Positions 2,632 to 36,953 of a stretch of DNA of 36,953 nt are shown piece after piece. Location of the stretch: positions 1 to 36,953 of the forward strand of contig JAILHI010000015.1 in NCBI GenBank assembly GCA_024695865.1, in the 5' to 3' direction. The stretch's first letter is position 1. Each line of letters opens with the position of its first letter. The translations under genes were made by a program, and so were the position numbers. The stretch is from Candidatus Gastranaerophilales bacterium (GTDB lineage: Bacteria > Cyanobacteriota > Vampirovibrionia > Gastranaerophilales > Gastranaerophilaceae). Under the pieces are notes generated by a model. That model made no database searches. It was not told the DNA's origin and saw only the letters and a program-made list of their open reading frames with translations.

Positions 2632-3342
2632 ATGTGTGCGGTGGTAACAAATCAAGTGCAAGACAAGATACAAGAATACATAGAGTTAATTGAAAAAGTT
2701 GCGAAGGTTGAACAACGCAGAATTCCTTCTCATATGGTTGAGTATGAGGAACTTGTCAGCATTGGTATTATTGCCATACAAACAATGATTAAAGGAAAGA
2801 CCGAACAACAACTTGCAAGATATAACAACGCTTACATTTCCACCGCAGTGCGTTGGGCTATCAGAAACGAGTTGAGAAACAGGTACAAATGGTATTCATT
2901 AAAGAACGTTAAACAGGTCGATGAAACTTCCGAAGGTGAAGAAGGCGAAAGTACGGGTGAATACGGCGGCGGAAGTGATGACAGCGAAAAAATATCCCCG
3001 CATAAAGTCCGAGAGGCTATTTATACCACGATTTTGTCTATCGACAGTTTGCAGCAGGCAAATTCGGACAGCGATTCTCCTTTTGATTTCATTAAGGATA
3101 ATTCCGCACTTCCCGACGAAAAAGCCGAAATTTCAGAACTCGGTAAAGTTATAAGAGAAGCCATTGCAACACTTCCCCAAAAGGACAGAACTATTGTTGA
3201 ATATCGTTTTTACAGAAATATGCAGGTTAAAGAAATTGCCGCTCAAGTCGGTTTATCTTCTTCCAGAATTACGAGAATTGTTCAGTCAGCGCTGAATTAC
3301 GTTCGTGAATATCTGCAAAAACGTGAACATTACGGATATTAA
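2632..3342 (+). CDS. fliA: Sigma-70 family factor, FliA/sigma-28-like
   Basis: This 236-aa protein has a region 2 (about residues 20-95, ending in VRWAIRNELRNRYKWYSLK) and a C-terminal region 4 (about residues 165-230, ending in an HTH with VKEIAAQVGLSSSRITRI). The length is typical of FliA/sigma-28, which transcribes late flagellar and motility genes. It lies 27 bp after flhB on the same strand, which supports a flagellar or export role. The middle is unusual: residues about 100-125 form a Glu/Gly/Ser-rich acidic linker instead of a well-conserved region 3. No strong ribosome binding site precedes the chosen ATG. A near-perfect sigma-28 promoter is present at 31048-31074 in this window. Confidence 0.8.
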   Translation: MCAVVTNQVQDKIQEYIELIEKVAKVEQRRIPSHMVEYEELVSIGIIAIQTMIKGKTEQQLARYNNAYISTAVRWAIRNELRNRYKWYSLKNVKQVDETSEGEEGESTGEYGGGSDDSEKISPHKVREAIYTTILSIDSLQQANSDSDSPFDFIKDNSALPDEKAEISELGKVIREAIATLPQKDRTIVEYRFYRNMQVKEIAAQVGLSSSRITRIVQSALNYVREYLQKREHYGY

Positions 3343-30965: not shown

Positions 30966-30996
30966 GTGAAAGCCGAGTAAATCTCGGCTTTTTTGC
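30966..30996 (+). terminator. clpB terminator
   Basis: The arms AAAGCCGAG (30969-30977) and CTCGGCTTT (30983-30991) form a perfect 9-bp stem with a 5-nt loop followed by TTT. It starts 22 bp after the clpB stop. Confidence 0.92.
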
Positions 30997-31047
30997 TTTT
31001 GTATCAGGTGTTGTGTAAACAAATGTAACAAATTTTTTATTTATCTC

Positions 31048-31074
31048 TAAAGTTTTTTTCTTTTTTGCCGATAG
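31048..31074 (+). promoter_or_regulatory. Sigma-28 (FliA/SigD)-type promoter
   Basis: TAAAGTTT (31048-31055), exactly 11 bp, then GCCGATAG (31067-31074) match the sigma-28 consensus TAAAGTTT-N11-GCCGATAA at 15 of 16 positions with exact spacing. The -10 element ends 28 nt before the ATG of the 51-codon gene, an ideal leader length. The match is seen directly in the sequence; use by the sigma factor at 2632-3342 is inference. Confidence 0.8.
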
Positions 31075-31102
31075 GCATTATATAGAGAAAAAGGAAACAG
31101 TA

Positions 31103-31258
31103 ATGATAAAAAAACTTACGATTTCAAATACAAACATTTCAAGTTGTGTTGAGTTTTTGCTTCAGGGTGCTAAAAAAAGACGTGCCATGGCTGTTTCGAA
31201 TGCCAAATCGATGAGTTCTGAGATGGGCATTAAAACGAAATTAGTTGCATTAAATTAA
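31103..31258 (+). CDS. Small protein (51 aa) with a sigma-28-type promoter
   Basis: I do not recognise this protein. It starts MIKKLTISNTNISSCVEFLL and ends with a Lys, Ser, Met and Ala-rich stretch that reads as an amphipathic helix. It has no membrane segment. Support for a real gene comes from several independent signals: a textbook ribosome binding site (AAGGA, 7 nt spacing), a near-consensus sigma-28 promoter 28 nt upstream, and a perfect intrinsic terminator 49 bp after the stop. It is therefore monocistronic and expected to belong to a motility, export or late-stage regulon. A role as a secreted peptide, anti-sigma factor or export chaperone cannot be told from sequence. Confidence 0.75.
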   Translation: MIKKLTISNTNISSCVEFLLQGAKKRRAMAVSNAKSMSSEMGIKTKLVALN

Positions 31259-31306
31259 TCGGAATATATTAATTTATTTCAACAAATTGAGAGAGAGTTA
31301 ATTATA

Positions 31307-31335
31307 ATCAAGCACGAATGGCTTGATTTTTTTTT
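31307..31335 (+). terminator. Terminator of the 51-codon gene
   Basis: The arms ATCAAGC and GCTTGAT form a perfect stem with a 7-nt loop, followed by a run of eight or more T. It isolates the small gene from the surface-protein gene downstream. Confidence 0.92.
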
Positions 31336-31667: not shown

Positions 31668-34600
31668 ATGAATTCGTTTCGTAATAAAAATAAGTCTTTA
31701 TTGGCTGCGGTTTTTCTCGGAACAATGATTTCGGCGGCAGGTGTTGCCGATGCTTCGAGTTATTCGCTTACACCGACCGATGCACAGGGTTTGGATACCG
31801 TCACAGAGTATTCCTATAATTCATTAACGGGTGAATTTACCCCGCAATATTACAAGATGACCCTGAATAGTCCCTCAACAGTCGGCACCGATGCCAAATA
31901 CTTCAAGTGGGCGCAGGATTTACAGGGTAACAAAACCTTTATTTATGCGACAAATGAATCGGAAGCCAATCTGTCTTACAAATATACACTTAACAAAAAC
32001 CCTGATGCAAGTGTCAAAACTATCTTAAAAACTGCTATAACAAACTATTTGTCGGCTTCTCACGCAAAATATACCGTTACAAACTCAAAACAGACCGATA
32101 ACGACATGTCTTTGCGTGTCTTTAACGGTATAGGTACGGGTACAAAATATACTCAATACTACTTCACACCTGCTGAAGGCGAAGAAGATATTGCGGCGTT
32201 TCTTGCGGCAACCGGAAATCAGTATTTTCAGGAAGTCGGAAGCGGCGATGATTACATCTTTAAGATTGGCAGTAAATATTACACGATAGACACTTCGCTT
32301 ATACCCGACAGTTCTTATGTTGAAACTCCTGTTCCGTCAAAAACCCAATTAGGTATTTATTCAAAGTATTTTACCGAGGAAAATTTGGCTAACGGTCAAC
32401 TGACGGAAAGTTTAAGACGTACCGATTTGTCAAAAACCACTTATGGTGTTGGTGACACAAGTAAATACTACAAGTGGACAGAGGATATTGACCACAATAT
32501 TAAACTTACTGCAACGGCTAATCCCGAAGAAGCAAATATTACCGCTCTTTATCATAACTATTTAGATACTCAAGACGGTAATTCAAAGGTAGCAACCGTA
32601 ACTACAAACGGTACGGCTTCAAAGTATAAAACTGACGGCGGTGCGGCTTTAAGCAATCCTGACGGCACAACAACAAGTATTAATGAGGTACTCTACTCTA
32701 ACAATGAAACAACTGCTACGGTTTCCTCAAGCGGTAATTGCCGTGGCTGGCTCGGTGGTGCGGTTCACAATGCGGGAACACTCACAAGCGTTGTTGCCGA
32801 TTTTGTAAATAATACATTTGCTGCAGACAGAGCAACAACAACCGATTCATATTCCAAAAATCGTATTTACGGCGGCGGTGCGTTGGGTAATGCAGGCACA
32901 ATAAATTCACTGACAGGTACCTTTATCAACAACAGGCTGGCAGGCAGCGGTACAGGCCCCGACTATGGCGGCGGCGGCGCAATTATGAACCTCGTCGGCG
33001 GTACAATCTCAAGTGTTACGGGCGACTTTGTTGCTAACTATGTTGATATTTCTGCTATTGCTTCCGGTTCTCAGGCGGCAGATGCTCACTTTACGGGCGG
33101 CGGTGCTATCTACAATATTGCAAAAATGGACACCATCAAAGGTGATTTTATAGGCAACAATGTCAATGTTTCGGCAACTTCATCAGGCACTTTGAATGCC
33201 GCTGATAACACTTCGGGCGGCGGTGCAATTTACGTTTATTCGGGCCCCATCGGAAATATCGAAGGCGACTTTGTAAATAACTACGTCAATGTTTCGGCTT
33301 CTACTTCGAGTAATAAAAGAGCTGAAGCCTACGCTTCGGGCGGCGGCGCAATCTTTGTCAGAAACAATGAAGGTTCAACGGGCAATATCACGGGTGACTT
33401 TTTAGGTAACTATGTTCTTGTTTCGGCAACCACATCAGGTACTCAAATTGCAGATTCCCAGCAGTCAGGCGGCGGCGCCGTTTATAACAATGGCGGTGCA
33501 GTGGGTAACCTTACGGGTGACTTTATCGGAAACTATGCTGTTGTGAATGCGATAGCCGAATCAACCGCTACCGAAGCAAATGCTTTCTATTCAGGCGGTG
33601 GTGCCGTTATGAATAATGCCGGCTCAATGGGCAATATCACGGGTAACTTCCTCAGTAACTATATTATGGTGACAACAAATTCTGCGGGTTCGGGCAAAGC
33701 CGACGATAATTTATCGGGCGGTGGTGCAATCTACAATAATGCTGATTTGGGCTATGTTACAGGTGATTTTATAGGTAACCATTCTGATCTCTCGGCGACT
33801 GCAAGCGGTTCTGCCTCTGCAGATGCTACTGTATCGGGCGGCGGTGCAATTTACAATAATTGGGGCGATATTGCCAAAATCACAGGTGATTTTGTAGAAA
33901 ACTATACCAATGTTTCTGCTGTTTCAACAGGTTCGGGCAAATCTCAGTCCTCCGCATCAGGCGGTGCTGCTATTTACAATTATTACGGTTCAATAGGCGA
34001 TATTACGGGTGACTTTATAAATAACTATGCCAATGTATCCGCCATTGCAACAGGTGATAATCTGGCTAAAACTCTTACCTCGGGCGGTGGTGCTATTTAC
34101 AACGAAAGTGAAATAGCAAATATCACGGGTAAATTTATAGGTAACAGTATAAATATATCCGCAATTTCTACGGGCACCGAAGAAGCATGGGCATATGCAA
34201 CAGGCGGCGGTGCTATCTACAATGACAGTGATATGGGAGTAATTACAGGTGATTTTGTCGGCAACTCTTCCGTATCGACGATTACGGCAGGAGCAGGAGC
34301 CACCTTCGCAGATGCTACCATTTCTGGCGGCGGTGCAATTTTTAACTATCAAGGCACAACCGATGATGTTATAGGTAACTTTATCGCTAACCATGCCATT
34401 GTCTCTGCTTCCTCCGCAGGTTCTGAATATGCAGAAGATTATTATTCAGGCGGCGGTGCAATTTACAACTACGATACAATGGGTAATATCACAGGTAACT
34501 TTACAGGAAACTATGCCCTTGTATCAGCGGAAACCGAAACGGGTAGTGCTACATACGCAAAACCGCAGCAGTCAGGCGGCGGTGCCATTTACAACTACGG

Positions 34601-36953
34601 TACAATGGGTGATGTCACGGGCGATTTTATAACTAACTATACGCACGTAACAGCAATTTCTGCAGGTTCGGAAGAAGCAAAATCTATCCTTTCAGGCGGC
34701 GGTGCTATTTACAACACCGATACACTCGGTAATCTCTCCGGAGACTTTATAGGTAACTATGCTTATATATCGGCGGCATCAAGCGGCGATTCCTTTTCTG
34801 ACGCTTCAAGATCAGGCGGCGGCGCTATTTACAATTCGGTCGGAACAATTGATGATATTGACGGCGATTTTATAAATAACTATGCCGTTATATCAGCGGT
34901 TTCTACAAACACGGAAGATGCTAAAGCCTACTCATCGGGCGGCGGCGCAATCTACAATTATGCAGGTACACTTGGAAATATTACGGGTGATTTTATCGGT
35001 AACTATGCAGAGATATCAGCGGTTTCAGGTGATGCTGCAAAGGCAAATTCTGCTACCTCGGGCGGTGGTGCTATTTTCAACCTCTCTGACATAGGTGATA
35101 TTACAGGCGACTTCACGGGCAACTATGCACAAAATGCTAACGGAAATGTCTATGGCGGTGCAATTTTCGCTCAGGGCACAATAGGTGATGTTACGGGTGA
35201 TTTCACGGGCAACTACGTGGTCGGTGATGAGGGCTTTGGCGGTGCAATCTATAACGAGACAACACTTAACATCTATGACTCATCATTTATCGGTAACCAT
35301 GCGACAAACGGCGGTGCAATCTACAACGACGGCGGCACTTTATCCGTAACTGCAAACACAGAGGATATTGAATTTACAAATAACAACACAACAGGTACGC
35401 CTGAAGGTACGGGCTACGGAATTTACAACGCAAGCGGCACGGTCAGCCTTAATGCCGTAGGCGCAAACACTCTGACCGTCAACGATGCAATCTGTAACGA
35501 CGGCACTTTGAGTCTTAACGCCGCAGGTCAAACGGGAGATATAATCCTTGCAGATGTAGCAGGTACGGGTTCTTTGTCTGTCGCAGGCGGCAGTGTTATT
35601 GCAGACAGTATCAGCCAAAATATAGTATCGATTGCAGCGGGCAAGACTCTAAACGTCGGCACTCTCTCTGCAACAAGCGGTACTGCTAACGCAGGCACTC
35701 TGACAATTACAGAGTCAAATTCAACTGCGGTTACGGGTGCAGGTACAACAATTTTTGCAGGCAGCGATACAGTAAACACGGGCATAATTTCTCAGGCTGC
35801 CGAAATTGCAAGCGGCAAAAAACTTACTACTGTTATTAACAATTTAGACGGTACAATAACTAACGCAGGTACCTTAATAACAACAGGTTTGCTGGATAAA
35901 ACTATCAGCGGCGCAGGCATTACCAAAATAAATTCAACATTAGGTTTTGGAACTGCTGCGGCGATAAACGGAACGTTAGACTTCAATAACGGTACGTTAA
36001 CCTTATCCTCGGGTTCAATAGCAAACAACAATGTCGGCGCGGTAATCGGAAACGGTAATATGAATATCGATTTGCGAATTGGTGCGCAGACGGCCGATTC
36101 GCTGACTCTGTCGAATGTTTCAAGCGGTTTGATAACCCTTACGGGTGTCAACATTATCGATTCCTCGGCAACTCATATAGCAGATGATTACAGGGTGGAT
36201 ATATTAAACACCGTACCTCTCGGAAGTACGGTACAACTTGCACTCAGTGATGATGTTGCTGCAGCCTTTGATGCAAAAGAATATATCATGCAGGAAATAC
36301 CCGAGTCTGTGTCCTATGATGCGGTGCCTGAAAATACGAATTGGTTATACAATTTGTACAAAAAATATGTAACCTCGGAAATAACAGTTTTCGGTAAACT
36401 CGGTTTAACTGATGACAAATATGGAATACAGGTATCCGAATCTTCAAGAACGGGCGGGGAAACAACCGAATATCCCGTTGATACATTGGCATGTGTCAAT
36501 CAATCAACATCAATACCCGTAAAAGCGTTTACTGCTCAAACAGACGGCATTACATATACCGTAACGGAAACCCCGGGTACAACAACAGGAACAGTAATTG
36601 TTTCGGGTGTTGCAGGCGGCAGTGCCGAAACTATTGACCTTGCCGGTCATACGGGTTTTGTATTATCAACTCCGTCAGCAATTTTAACCTTGAATGATGT
36701 TACACTTACAGGCTCTAATGAAGCGGCTGTAACTTTGACTAACGGCACTTTGAATGTAAACAGTTCTACCTTGTCGGGTAATACGGCAGCAACTGCAGGC
36801 GGTGCCATAAATAATGCAGGCGGAACGGTCAATATTACTAATTCCGTATTTACAGGCAATACTGAAAACGGTCAGAATAACGATATTTATAACTCGGGTA
36901 CAATTAACCTCTCGGGCATGAATACTTTAAACGGCGGTATTACAGGTGCTTCG
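31668..36953 (+). CDS. Giant secreted protein with Pmp-like GGA[IV]/FxxN repeats (3' end outside window)
   Basis: The frame is open from this ATG to the window end, 1762 codons without a stop, so the C-terminus is missing. An AAGGG ribosome binding site lies 7 nt upstream; a second ATG at 31662 is less well spaced. A signal peptide ends at about residue 29 (GVADA, then SSY). Residues about 55-300 hold two similar modules built around KY[FY]KW. Residues about 430-1150 carry some 18 repeats with GGGAIYN and ITGDFIGNY, then a Thr/Gly/Asn-rich beta-helix-like region. GGA[IV] plus FxxN is the pattern of chlamydial polymorphic membrane proteins, which are autotransporter adhesins. A C-terminal barrel or anchor would be beyond the window, so autotransport is not shown. 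Confidence 0.9.
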   Translation, partial: MNSFRNKNKSLLAAVFLGTMISAAGVADASSYSLTPTDAQGLDTVTEYSYNSLTGEFTPQYYKMTLNSPSTVGTDAKYFKWAQDLQGNKTFIYATNESEANLSYKYTLNKNPDASVKTILKTAITNYLSASHAKYTVTNSKQTDNDMSLRVFNGIGTGTKYTQYYFTPAEGEEDIAAFLAATGNQYFQEVGSGDDYIFKIGSKYYTIDTSLIPDSSYVETPVPSKTQLGIYSKYFTEENLANGQLTESLRRTDLSKTTYGVGDTSKYYKWTEDIDHNIKLTATANPEEANITALYHNYLDTQDGNSKVATVTTNGTASKYKTDGGAALSNPDGTTTSINEVLYSNNETTATVSSSGNCRGWLGGAVHNAGTLTSVVADFVNNTFAADRATTTDSYSKNRIYGGGALGNAGTINSLTGTFINNRLAGSGTGPDYGGGGAIMNLVGGTISSVTGDFVANYVDISAIASGSQAADAHFTGGGAIYNIAKMDTIKGDFIGNNVNVSATSSGTLNAADNTSGGGAIYVYSGPIGNIEGDFVNNYVNVSASTSSNKRAEAYASGGGAIFVRNNEGSTGNITGDFLGNYVLVSATTSGTQIADSQQSGGGAVYNNGGAVGNLTGDFIGNYAVVNAIAESTATEANAFYSGGGAVMNNAGSMGNITGNFLSNYIMVTTNSAGSGKADDNLSGGGAIYNNADLGYVTGDFIGNHSDLSATASGSASADATVSGGGAIYNNWGDIAKITGDFVENYTNVSAVSTGSGKSQSSASGGAAIYNYYGSIGDITGDFINNYANVSAIATGDNLAKTLTSGGGAIYNESEIANITGKFIGNSINISAISTGTEEAWAYATGGGAIYNDSDMGVITGDFVGNSSVSTITAGAGATFADATISGGGAIFNYQGTTDDVIGNFIANHAIVSASSAGSEYAEDYYSGGGAIYNYDTMGNITGNFTGNYALVSAETETGSATYAKPQQSGGGAIYNYGTMGDVTGDFITNYTHVTAISAGSEEAKSILSGGGAIYNTDTLGNLSGDFIGNYAYISAASSGDSFSDASRSGGGAIYNSVGTIDDIDGDFINNYAVISAVSTNTEDAKAYSSGGGAIYNYAGTLGNITGDFIGNYAEISAVSGDAAKANSATSGGGAIFNLSDIGDITGDFTGNYAQNANGNVYGGAIFAQGTIGDVTGDFTGNYVVGDEGFGGAIYNETTLNIYDSSFIGNHATNGGAIYNDGGTLSVTANTEDIEFTNNNTTGTPEGTGYGIYNASGTVSLNAVGANTLTVNDAICNDGTLSLNAAGQTGDIILADVAGTGSLSVAGGSVIADSISQNIVSIAAGKTLNVGTLSATSGTANAGTLTITESNSTAVTGAGTTIFAGSDTVNTGIISQAAEIASGKKLTTVINNLDGTITNAGTLITTGLLDKTISGAGITKINSTLGFGTAAAINGTLDFNNGTLTLSSGSIANNNVGAVIGNGNMNIDLRIGAQTADSLTLSNVSSGLITLTGVNIIDSSATHIADDYRVDILNTVPLGSTVQLALSDDVAAAFDAKEYIMQEIPESVSYDAVPENTNWLYNLYKKYVTSEITVFGKLGLTDDKYGIQVSESSRTGGETTEYPVDTLACVNQSTSIPVKAFTAQTDGITYTVTETPGTTTGTVIVSGVAGGSAETIDLAGHTGFVLSTPSAILTLNDVTLTGSNEAAVTLTNGTLNVNSSTLSGNTAATAGGAINNAGGTVNITNSVFTGNTENGQNNDIYNSGTINLSGMNTLNGGITGAS
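32865..35120 (+). repeat. Tandem coding repeats of about 120-130 bp
   Basis: About 18 units recur with starts near 32968, 33100, 33220, 33340, 33469, 33595, 33718, 33838, 33961 and so on to about 35062. Each unit has a GGCGGYGGTGC block coding GGGA, followed by ATYTACAAY and, about 40 bp later, ACRGGTGAYTTT coding TGDF. Unit length varies from about 117 to 132 bp, always in multiples of three. A degenerate version continues to about 35340, and single GGAI/FTGN pairs reappear near 36800. Confidence 0.85.

Follow-up and report, generated by a model that had tools for sequence, protein, structure and literature searches.

Organization of the locus

The window analysed here is a 36,953-nucleotide stretch of DNA (contig JAILHI010000015.1, forward strand) from a Candidatus Gastranaerophilales bacterium (GCA_024695865.1). 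Near its 3' end lies a gene of 51 codons on the plus strand (31103-31258; ATG at 31103, stop codon at 31256-31258), the product of which is MIKKLTISNTNISSCVEFLLQGAKKRRAMAVSNAKSMSSEMGIKTKLVALN. The start codon is preceded by a Shine-Dalgarno sequence, AAGGAAA (31091-31097), read directly from the sequence, and the gene is followed by an intrinsic terminator on the same strand consisting of an 8-bp stem and a T9 tract (31306-31335; RNA fold -8.3 kcal/mol, z -2.3). The ribosome-binding site, start codon, reading frame, and terminator are all located where the first-pass annotation of this DNA had placed them. Because the upstream gene, clpB, ends in a strong terminator of its own (30970-30994, plus strand; RNA fold -15 kcal/mol, z -4.7), the small gene is flanked by terminators on both sides and forms its own transcription unit. 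In this non-photosynthetic relative of cyanobacteria, a conserved 51-aa protein is thus encoded by a transcription unit that stands alone. Further downstream, positions 31669-36953 probably represent the first part of a long ORF of repetitive, surface-protein-like character, which is cut off by the contig end.

At the other end of the window, an FlhB-family export component is encoded on the plus strand (1534-2604), an assignment made earlier from the sequence and now confirmed by a Pfam match (PF01312, E = 1.4e-112; TIGR00328, 345.6 bits against a cut-off of 349.25). We take FlhB to be a core part of the type III export apparatus. Directly behind flhB is a gene for a divergent sigma-70-family factor (2632-3342, plus strand), which the first-pass annotation had regarded as sigma-28-like. 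The gene is indeed a member of the sigma-70 family, but it was rejected as FliA, being only a weak FliA/WhiG relative (TIGR02479, 81-83 bits against a cut-off of 189.6). The bona fide sigma-28 factor of this genome is encoded on another contig (G000:C61:6574-7236) and scores 246 bits with the same model; FliA is present in 53 of the 59 near relatives.

Conservation of the 51-aa protein

Relatives of the 51-aa protein, usually in single copy, were identified in 50 of the 59 near relatives and in 276 of the 382 genomes of the class, counts that refer to metagenome-assembled genomes, some of them incomplete, and to related sequences that are not independent. The names of most of the contigs concerned point to metagenome-assembled genomes of Candidatus Gastranaerophilales or Melainabacteria. 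The frame, whose lack of conservation in related genomes had been listed in the first-pass annotation as grounds for refutation, is therefore conserved; it is retained across the order and also occurs in two additional families of the class (f9 and f15). The genus of this genome carries a second copy, a paralogue on contig C87 that is divergent from the start of an MGL gene (a family described below) and also has a sigma-28 promoter. No gene neighbourhood of the small gene is conserved across genera.

In most within-genus pairs, the dN/dS ratio of the small-protein gene is ~0.05-0.15. Residues N11, V16, G22, A23, K25, R26, R27, A30, and G42 are invariant or near-invariant in the family, the RR pair being invariant and K25 near-invariant, and the predicted pI is 10.4 for the protein itself and about 10.4-11 across the family. 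The product had been described as unrecognised, and profile searches of Pfam, NCBIfam, and PDB likewise found no known domain in the family. The best PDB match (E = 0.49) was to a ribosomal protein S7-like stretch and was judged to be due to chance, and the best PHROGs match (E = 0.0028) was to an unnamed family and was obtained with 4 of 27 members. These comparisons identify the small gene as a conserved and previously unnamed gene of the gut relatives of cyanobacteria. In five genomes (G245, G209, G226, G394, and G029; loci L179-L183), the small-protein copies are decayed and shortened, with the sigma-28 promoter still kept.

The sigma-28 promoter

In front of the gene, the plus strand carries a -35 element, TAAAGTTT (31048-31055), and a -10 element, GCCGATAG (31067-31074). 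The resulting sequence, TAAAGTTT-N11-GCCGATAG (31048-31074), agrees with TAAAGTTT-N11-GCCGATAA at 15 of 16 positions, confirming the near-perfect sigma-28 promoter with exact spacing reported in the first-pass annotation. A scan of the whole genome (2.16 Mb), which that annotation had proposed for defining the regulon, yielded seven occurrences of the exact pattern with spacers of 10-12 nt and none when the pattern was read backwards. In the genome and 58 relatives, 346 sites with no more than one mismatch were found, compared with 74 in the reversed control. At three mismatches, 295 sites were obtained versus 301 in the reversed control, i.e. there was no enrichment, and the genome-wide scans were therefore limited to sites with zero or one mismatch. 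All examined sites matching at 13 or more of 15 positions are intergenic, so that an equal density of matches in coding DNA, which would have spoken against the promoter, was not observed; an ORF is present downstream of nearly all of these sites.

The promoter is conserved together with the gene, as had been suggested for checking. A match at 13 or more of 15 positions is present upstream of the small gene in 74 of 101 distinct loci, whereas no such match occurs in any of 894 control windows taken from these loci. The TAAAG of the -35 element is almost invariant across the 101 loci, the -10 element is likewise conserved, and both are kept while the spacer sequence varies freely. The match persists in families f9 and f15 outside the order and in the decayed gene copies. 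This joint conservation of frame and promoter supports the earlier description of a small gene standing alone within a sigma-28 regulon, and the sequence comparisons make it almost certain that both the gene and its predicted promoter are real. Transcription of the gene would accordingly be carried out by RNA polymerase containing sigma-28 (FliA).

An HLR1-like box upstream of the promoter

When the upstream regions were aligned on the -35 element, TGTAA half-sites became apparent as a direct repeat with a spacing of about one helical turn. Read on the minus strand, this repeat matches HLR1, the RpaB-binding site of cyanobacteria, which consists of two (G/T)TTACA(T/A)(T/A) repeats separated by 2 nt (PMC9241938; PMC13421787), and it lies mostly on one strand across the loci. 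In the window, the box is GTTACATTTGTTTACACA (31012-31029, minus strand), composed of two direct repeats, located 18 bp upstream of the -35 element and matching KTTACAWW-N2-KTTACAWW at 15 of 16 positions. The presence of an HLR1-like box next to a sigma-28 promoter is new here and was missed by the first-pass annotation.

The HLR1 consensus was taken from the literature on cyanobacteria and was not fitted to the small-gene loci. A match at 15 or more of 16 positions was found in 72 of 100 family loci (16 of 16 positions in 52 of them), as compared with 2 of 896 windows drawn at random from these loci and 3 of 1000 composition-matched shuffles. These two sets served as the valid controls; a reversed-pattern control was dropped as not independent, since TTACATT, the half-site, is identical when reversed. 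The gap between the box and the -35 element is 17 bp in 69 loci, 18 bp in 8, and 16 bp in 4, with further gaps of 27-28 bp in 4 loci and 7-8 bp in 3. The clustering of gaps at 7-8, 17-18, and 27-28 bp indicates spacing by about one helical turn, and descent of unconstrained DNA would hardly account for a spacing fixed in this way in many genera. A clear box is absent from approximately one-quarter of the family loci and from several sigma-28 promoters of this genome. The box is degenerate in genomes beyond the order, where a related repeat often occurs at a gap of 28 bp.

With an assumed transcription start at 31081, the box is situated at about -69 to -52, slightly upstream of the published window for activation by RpaB (-66 to -45; PMC13421787). 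On the pattern of its conservation, we consider it highly probable that the box is a functional activator site, and the small gene would very likely be turned on jointly by the flagellar sigma factor and this upstream element. In several leaders of the regulon, including that of the small gene (31075-31102), a TGTAAG/TGTAATCAGA-like sequence recurs shortly 3' of the -10 element; it may represent a third half-site or a leader element.

RpaB as the candidate activator

Melainabacteria have been known since 2013 to hold homologues of RpaA, RpaB, and NblS without photosynthesis, for which another function is possible (PMC3787301). An RpaB equivalog was identified in a relative from the same family (L008; NF045944, 360.5 bits against a cut-off of 330), and RpaB-like genes are present in two further loci. 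In the 1.77 Mb searched (82% of this genome), the best response regulators scored 209 and 200 bits, below the same cut-off. We propose that an OmpR-type response regulator, most likely RpaB, would activate transcription by attaching to the HLR1 box, which lies 17-18 bp 5' of the -35 element; the identification of this activator as RpaB is reasonably likely. The resemblance to HLR1 might instead be coincidental, the element being simply an A+T-rich, UP-like region. The DNA upstream of the -35 element is in fact A+T-rich, and RpaB was not located in the 82% of this genome that was searched, but composition-matched shuffles and random windows almost never reach the match seen in most loci, and an A+T-rich region would hardly account for a box that is mostly on one strand, helically phased, and defined by a literature-derived consensus. 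We therefore regard a UP-like region as quite improbable.

The arrangement resembles the NblS-RpaB/HLR1 regulon of cyanobacteria in that the same 18-bp KTTACAWW-N2-KTTACAWW box lies just 5' of the core promoter and in that a family relative encodes an RpaB equivalog. It differs from it in its non-photosynthetic host, its sigma-28-type core promoter, its light-unrelated targets, and the location of the box (minus strand, with a gap of ~17-18 bp to the downstream -35 element). A literature search found no paper on type III secretion or on RpaB targets in Gastranaerophilales.

A predicted sigma-28 regulon and a flagellum-derived export apparatus

The combination of a sigma-28 promoter and a box is not confined to the small gene. 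In 1.77 Mb of this genome, an HLR1 box was found at 6 of 13 strong sigma-28 sites, whereas well under one would be expected from shuffles. The sigma-28 sites of this genome precede genes for proteins with an MGLxxSQAR motif (axial-like), calpain-like, HD-domain, and EF-hand proteins, and other small proteins. Both elements are present before MGLxxSQAR genes on contigs C36 (16/16, gap 18), C65 (15/16, gap 18), and C41 (16/16, gap 28) and before genes on C9, C54, C81, C80, and C28. Those at C54:40496, C81:18385, and C28:9774 precede genes for large EF-hand-like proteins and a 105-aa protein, and a 70-aa small protein (MSILSRYYYKKYMQRTL...) is encoded behind a sigma-28 site on the minus strand of contig C80 (G000:C80:527-739). 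The two-element promoter would thus drive further genes of an export-apparatus regulon.

The MGLxxSQAR family, with the extended motif MGLxxSQARxLxLTAR, is encoded on C36, C41, C65 (two genes), and C50/C87 and is predicted to be driven by sigma-28 in at least three cases. Its members share long, conserved helices at both termini with a variable region between them, without a Pfam match or a significant match in PDB. In a fold search with one co-regulated MGL protein, the terminal helices were predicted with confidence, and the best PDB match (E = 2.9) was not significant. On contig C41, a strong sigma-28 site (G000:C41:12121-12146; L046 1122-1147) is followed by a terminator within ~70 nt and by no ORF. 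A short RNA transcribed from it would carry the anti-Shine-Dalgarno-like sequence CCCUCCCC and is a candidate sigma-28-dependent sRNA; FlmR of Campylobacter is a known example of this type (PMC11187230).

Many Gastranaerophilales, including non-flagellated species, keep only a subset of the flagellar genes (PMC4040986). In agreement with this published finding, no match to flagellin and no canonical FliF were found in this genome or its genus, an absence that rests on four other genomes of the genus as well because this genome is 89.5% complete. With few exceptions, canonical FliF is seen only in flagellin-bearing relatives. Nearly all near relatives possess a second, divergent FliF, and genomes in which flagellin could not be detected still keep sigma-28 and the operon for divergent FliF, rod, and export proteins; the small gene is missing from some of the families that have the divergent FliF. 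In this genome, the operon (G000:C9; L145 8513-18831, minus strand) encodes the divergent FliF, FlgB-, FlgC-, and FlgF/G-like rod proteins, FliE, a transglycosylase, FliH, FlhA, and FliI, and it is without hook and flagellin genes; at the FliG position, no recognisable FliG domain was found. Since flagellin and canonical FliF are undetectable, the regulon probably serves an export apparatus rather than swimming. This flagellum-derived type III apparatus would comprise the divergent FliF, the rod-like proteins, and FliE/FliH/FliI/FlhA/FlhB, retained without detectable flagellin, and the regulon products, judged by their architecture, may be exported.

The regulon shares with the class III (late) flagellar genes controlled by FliA/SigD the promoter consensus and spacing, a bona fide sigma-28 factor, and intergenic, monocistronic genes of the late type. 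It differs in the lack of detectable flagellin or canonical FliF, in its targets (axial-like, EF-hand, calpain-like, and small proteins), and in the HLR1-like box added upstream. Lysobacter enzymogenes, which is non-flagellated but has a flagellar type III apparatus (PMC7277350), likewise keeps the export core without the flagellum, whereas the system described here is class-wide, has a sigma-28 regulon of its own, and comes with divergent FliF and rod proteins.

Possible roles of the 51-aa protein

In the AlphaFold2 model (mean pLDDT 83.5), residues 14-41 form a single helix, preceded by a flexible segment and followed by a conserved tail in an extended conformation; S, T, N, and P are abundant in the first 12 residues, for which flexibility is predicted. 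The helix carries a conserved seam with 4-3 spacing (V16-L20-A23-R27-A30-A34-I37-L41), as for packing against another helix. An amphipathic membrane helix was rejected, 48% of shuffled sequences reaching the same helical moment. The polypeptide is predicted to be basic and mostly single-helix and is probably cytoplasmic. The seam, the contrast between this basic protein and the acidic C-terminal helix of one co-regulated MGL protein (pI 4.6), and the location of the paralogue beside an MGL gene lead us to favour a partner-binding small chaperone or regulator of the export system, a role that is possible rather than probable. As a chaperone or escort, the protein would bind the acidic coiled-coil ends of the axial-like MGLxxSQAR proteins; alternatively, it would regulate either export or the regulon itself. 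FliS, FlgN, YscE/PscE, and CesA are small helical type III chaperones that are co-regulated with axial subunits. The 51-aa protein resembles them in being small, helical, and co-regulated, but it has only 51 residues and no sequence similarity to them, and its partner is putative.

Other roles must be weighed against this one. Late sigma-28 genes classically encode export substrates, other members of the regulon look exported, and the N terminus is flexible, all of which would suit an exported substrate or a small structural subunit of the type III apparatus. However, 51 aa is far below the length of known axial subunits, the protein resembles none of the needle or rod families, and a mostly single-copy, strongly conserved protein with an invariant RR and a near-invariant K25 is unlike surface-exposed subunits, which makes this role rather doubtful. 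It is also unlikely that the protein acts on sigma-28 as an anti-sigma factor or in feedback regulation, i.e. as a minimal functional replacement for FlgM. Although its association with sigma-28 promoters is strong and class-wide, FlgM was detected above the Pfam cut-off in none of the 59 genomes, flagellated ones included, and the protein is helical and small with a flexible N terminus, it is very basic, and divergent frames of 113-132 aa with weak FlgM-like matches in some relatives could encode the true FlgM. Identity with FlgM itself was rejected (no PF04316 match; hhalign probability 0.1 to Escherichia coli FlgM).

The remaining alternative is a small RNA- or DNA-binding regulator that acts post-transcriptionally on the regulon and is similar in kind to the arginine-rich DUF1127 proteins. 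The pI of 10.4-11 and the invariant RR patch fit such a function, and RNA binding has been reported for a Rhodobacter DUF1127 protein (PMC11707872). The 51-aa protein shares with DUF1127 proteins (YjiS, CcaF1) a length of ~50 aa and a richness in arginine and lysine but differs from them in having no Pfam or profile match. Identity with DUF1127/YjiS was rejected, as none of 49 members matched at E-values up to 1 and the hhalign probability was 0.2. Moreover, the RR patch sits within the seam that also looks protein-binding, and we judge there to be little likelihood of a nucleic acid-binding role.

Implications

Taken as a whole, the proposal of joint activation by sigma-28 and an RpaB-type regulator, a regulon devoted to export, and a partner-binding small protein is one that we moderately favour. 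A more specific form of it, in which the RpaB system that governs photosynthesis in cyanobacteria would here co-activate, together with sigma-28, the regulon of an export machine that has outlived the flagellum, with the 51-aa protein as a previously undescribed core component, is put forward tentatively, as nearly evenly balanced. Control of a sigma-28 regulon is a testable candidate role for the RpaB of non-photosynthetic relatives, and the finding of a literature-defined RpaB box fixed in helical phase beside sigma-28 promoters across an order offers a concrete answer, open to experiment, to the question of what RpaB does in Melainabacteria. A regulon under sigma-28 and RpaB-type control could explain the persistence of sigma-28 and a partial flagellar gene set in non-flagellated species, and a small protein family and a set of candidate exported proteins can now be named in common but poorly known gut bacteria. 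In this species, which lacks detectable flagellin, what was once a flagellar switch appears to have been turned over to a protein-export machine derived from the flagellum.
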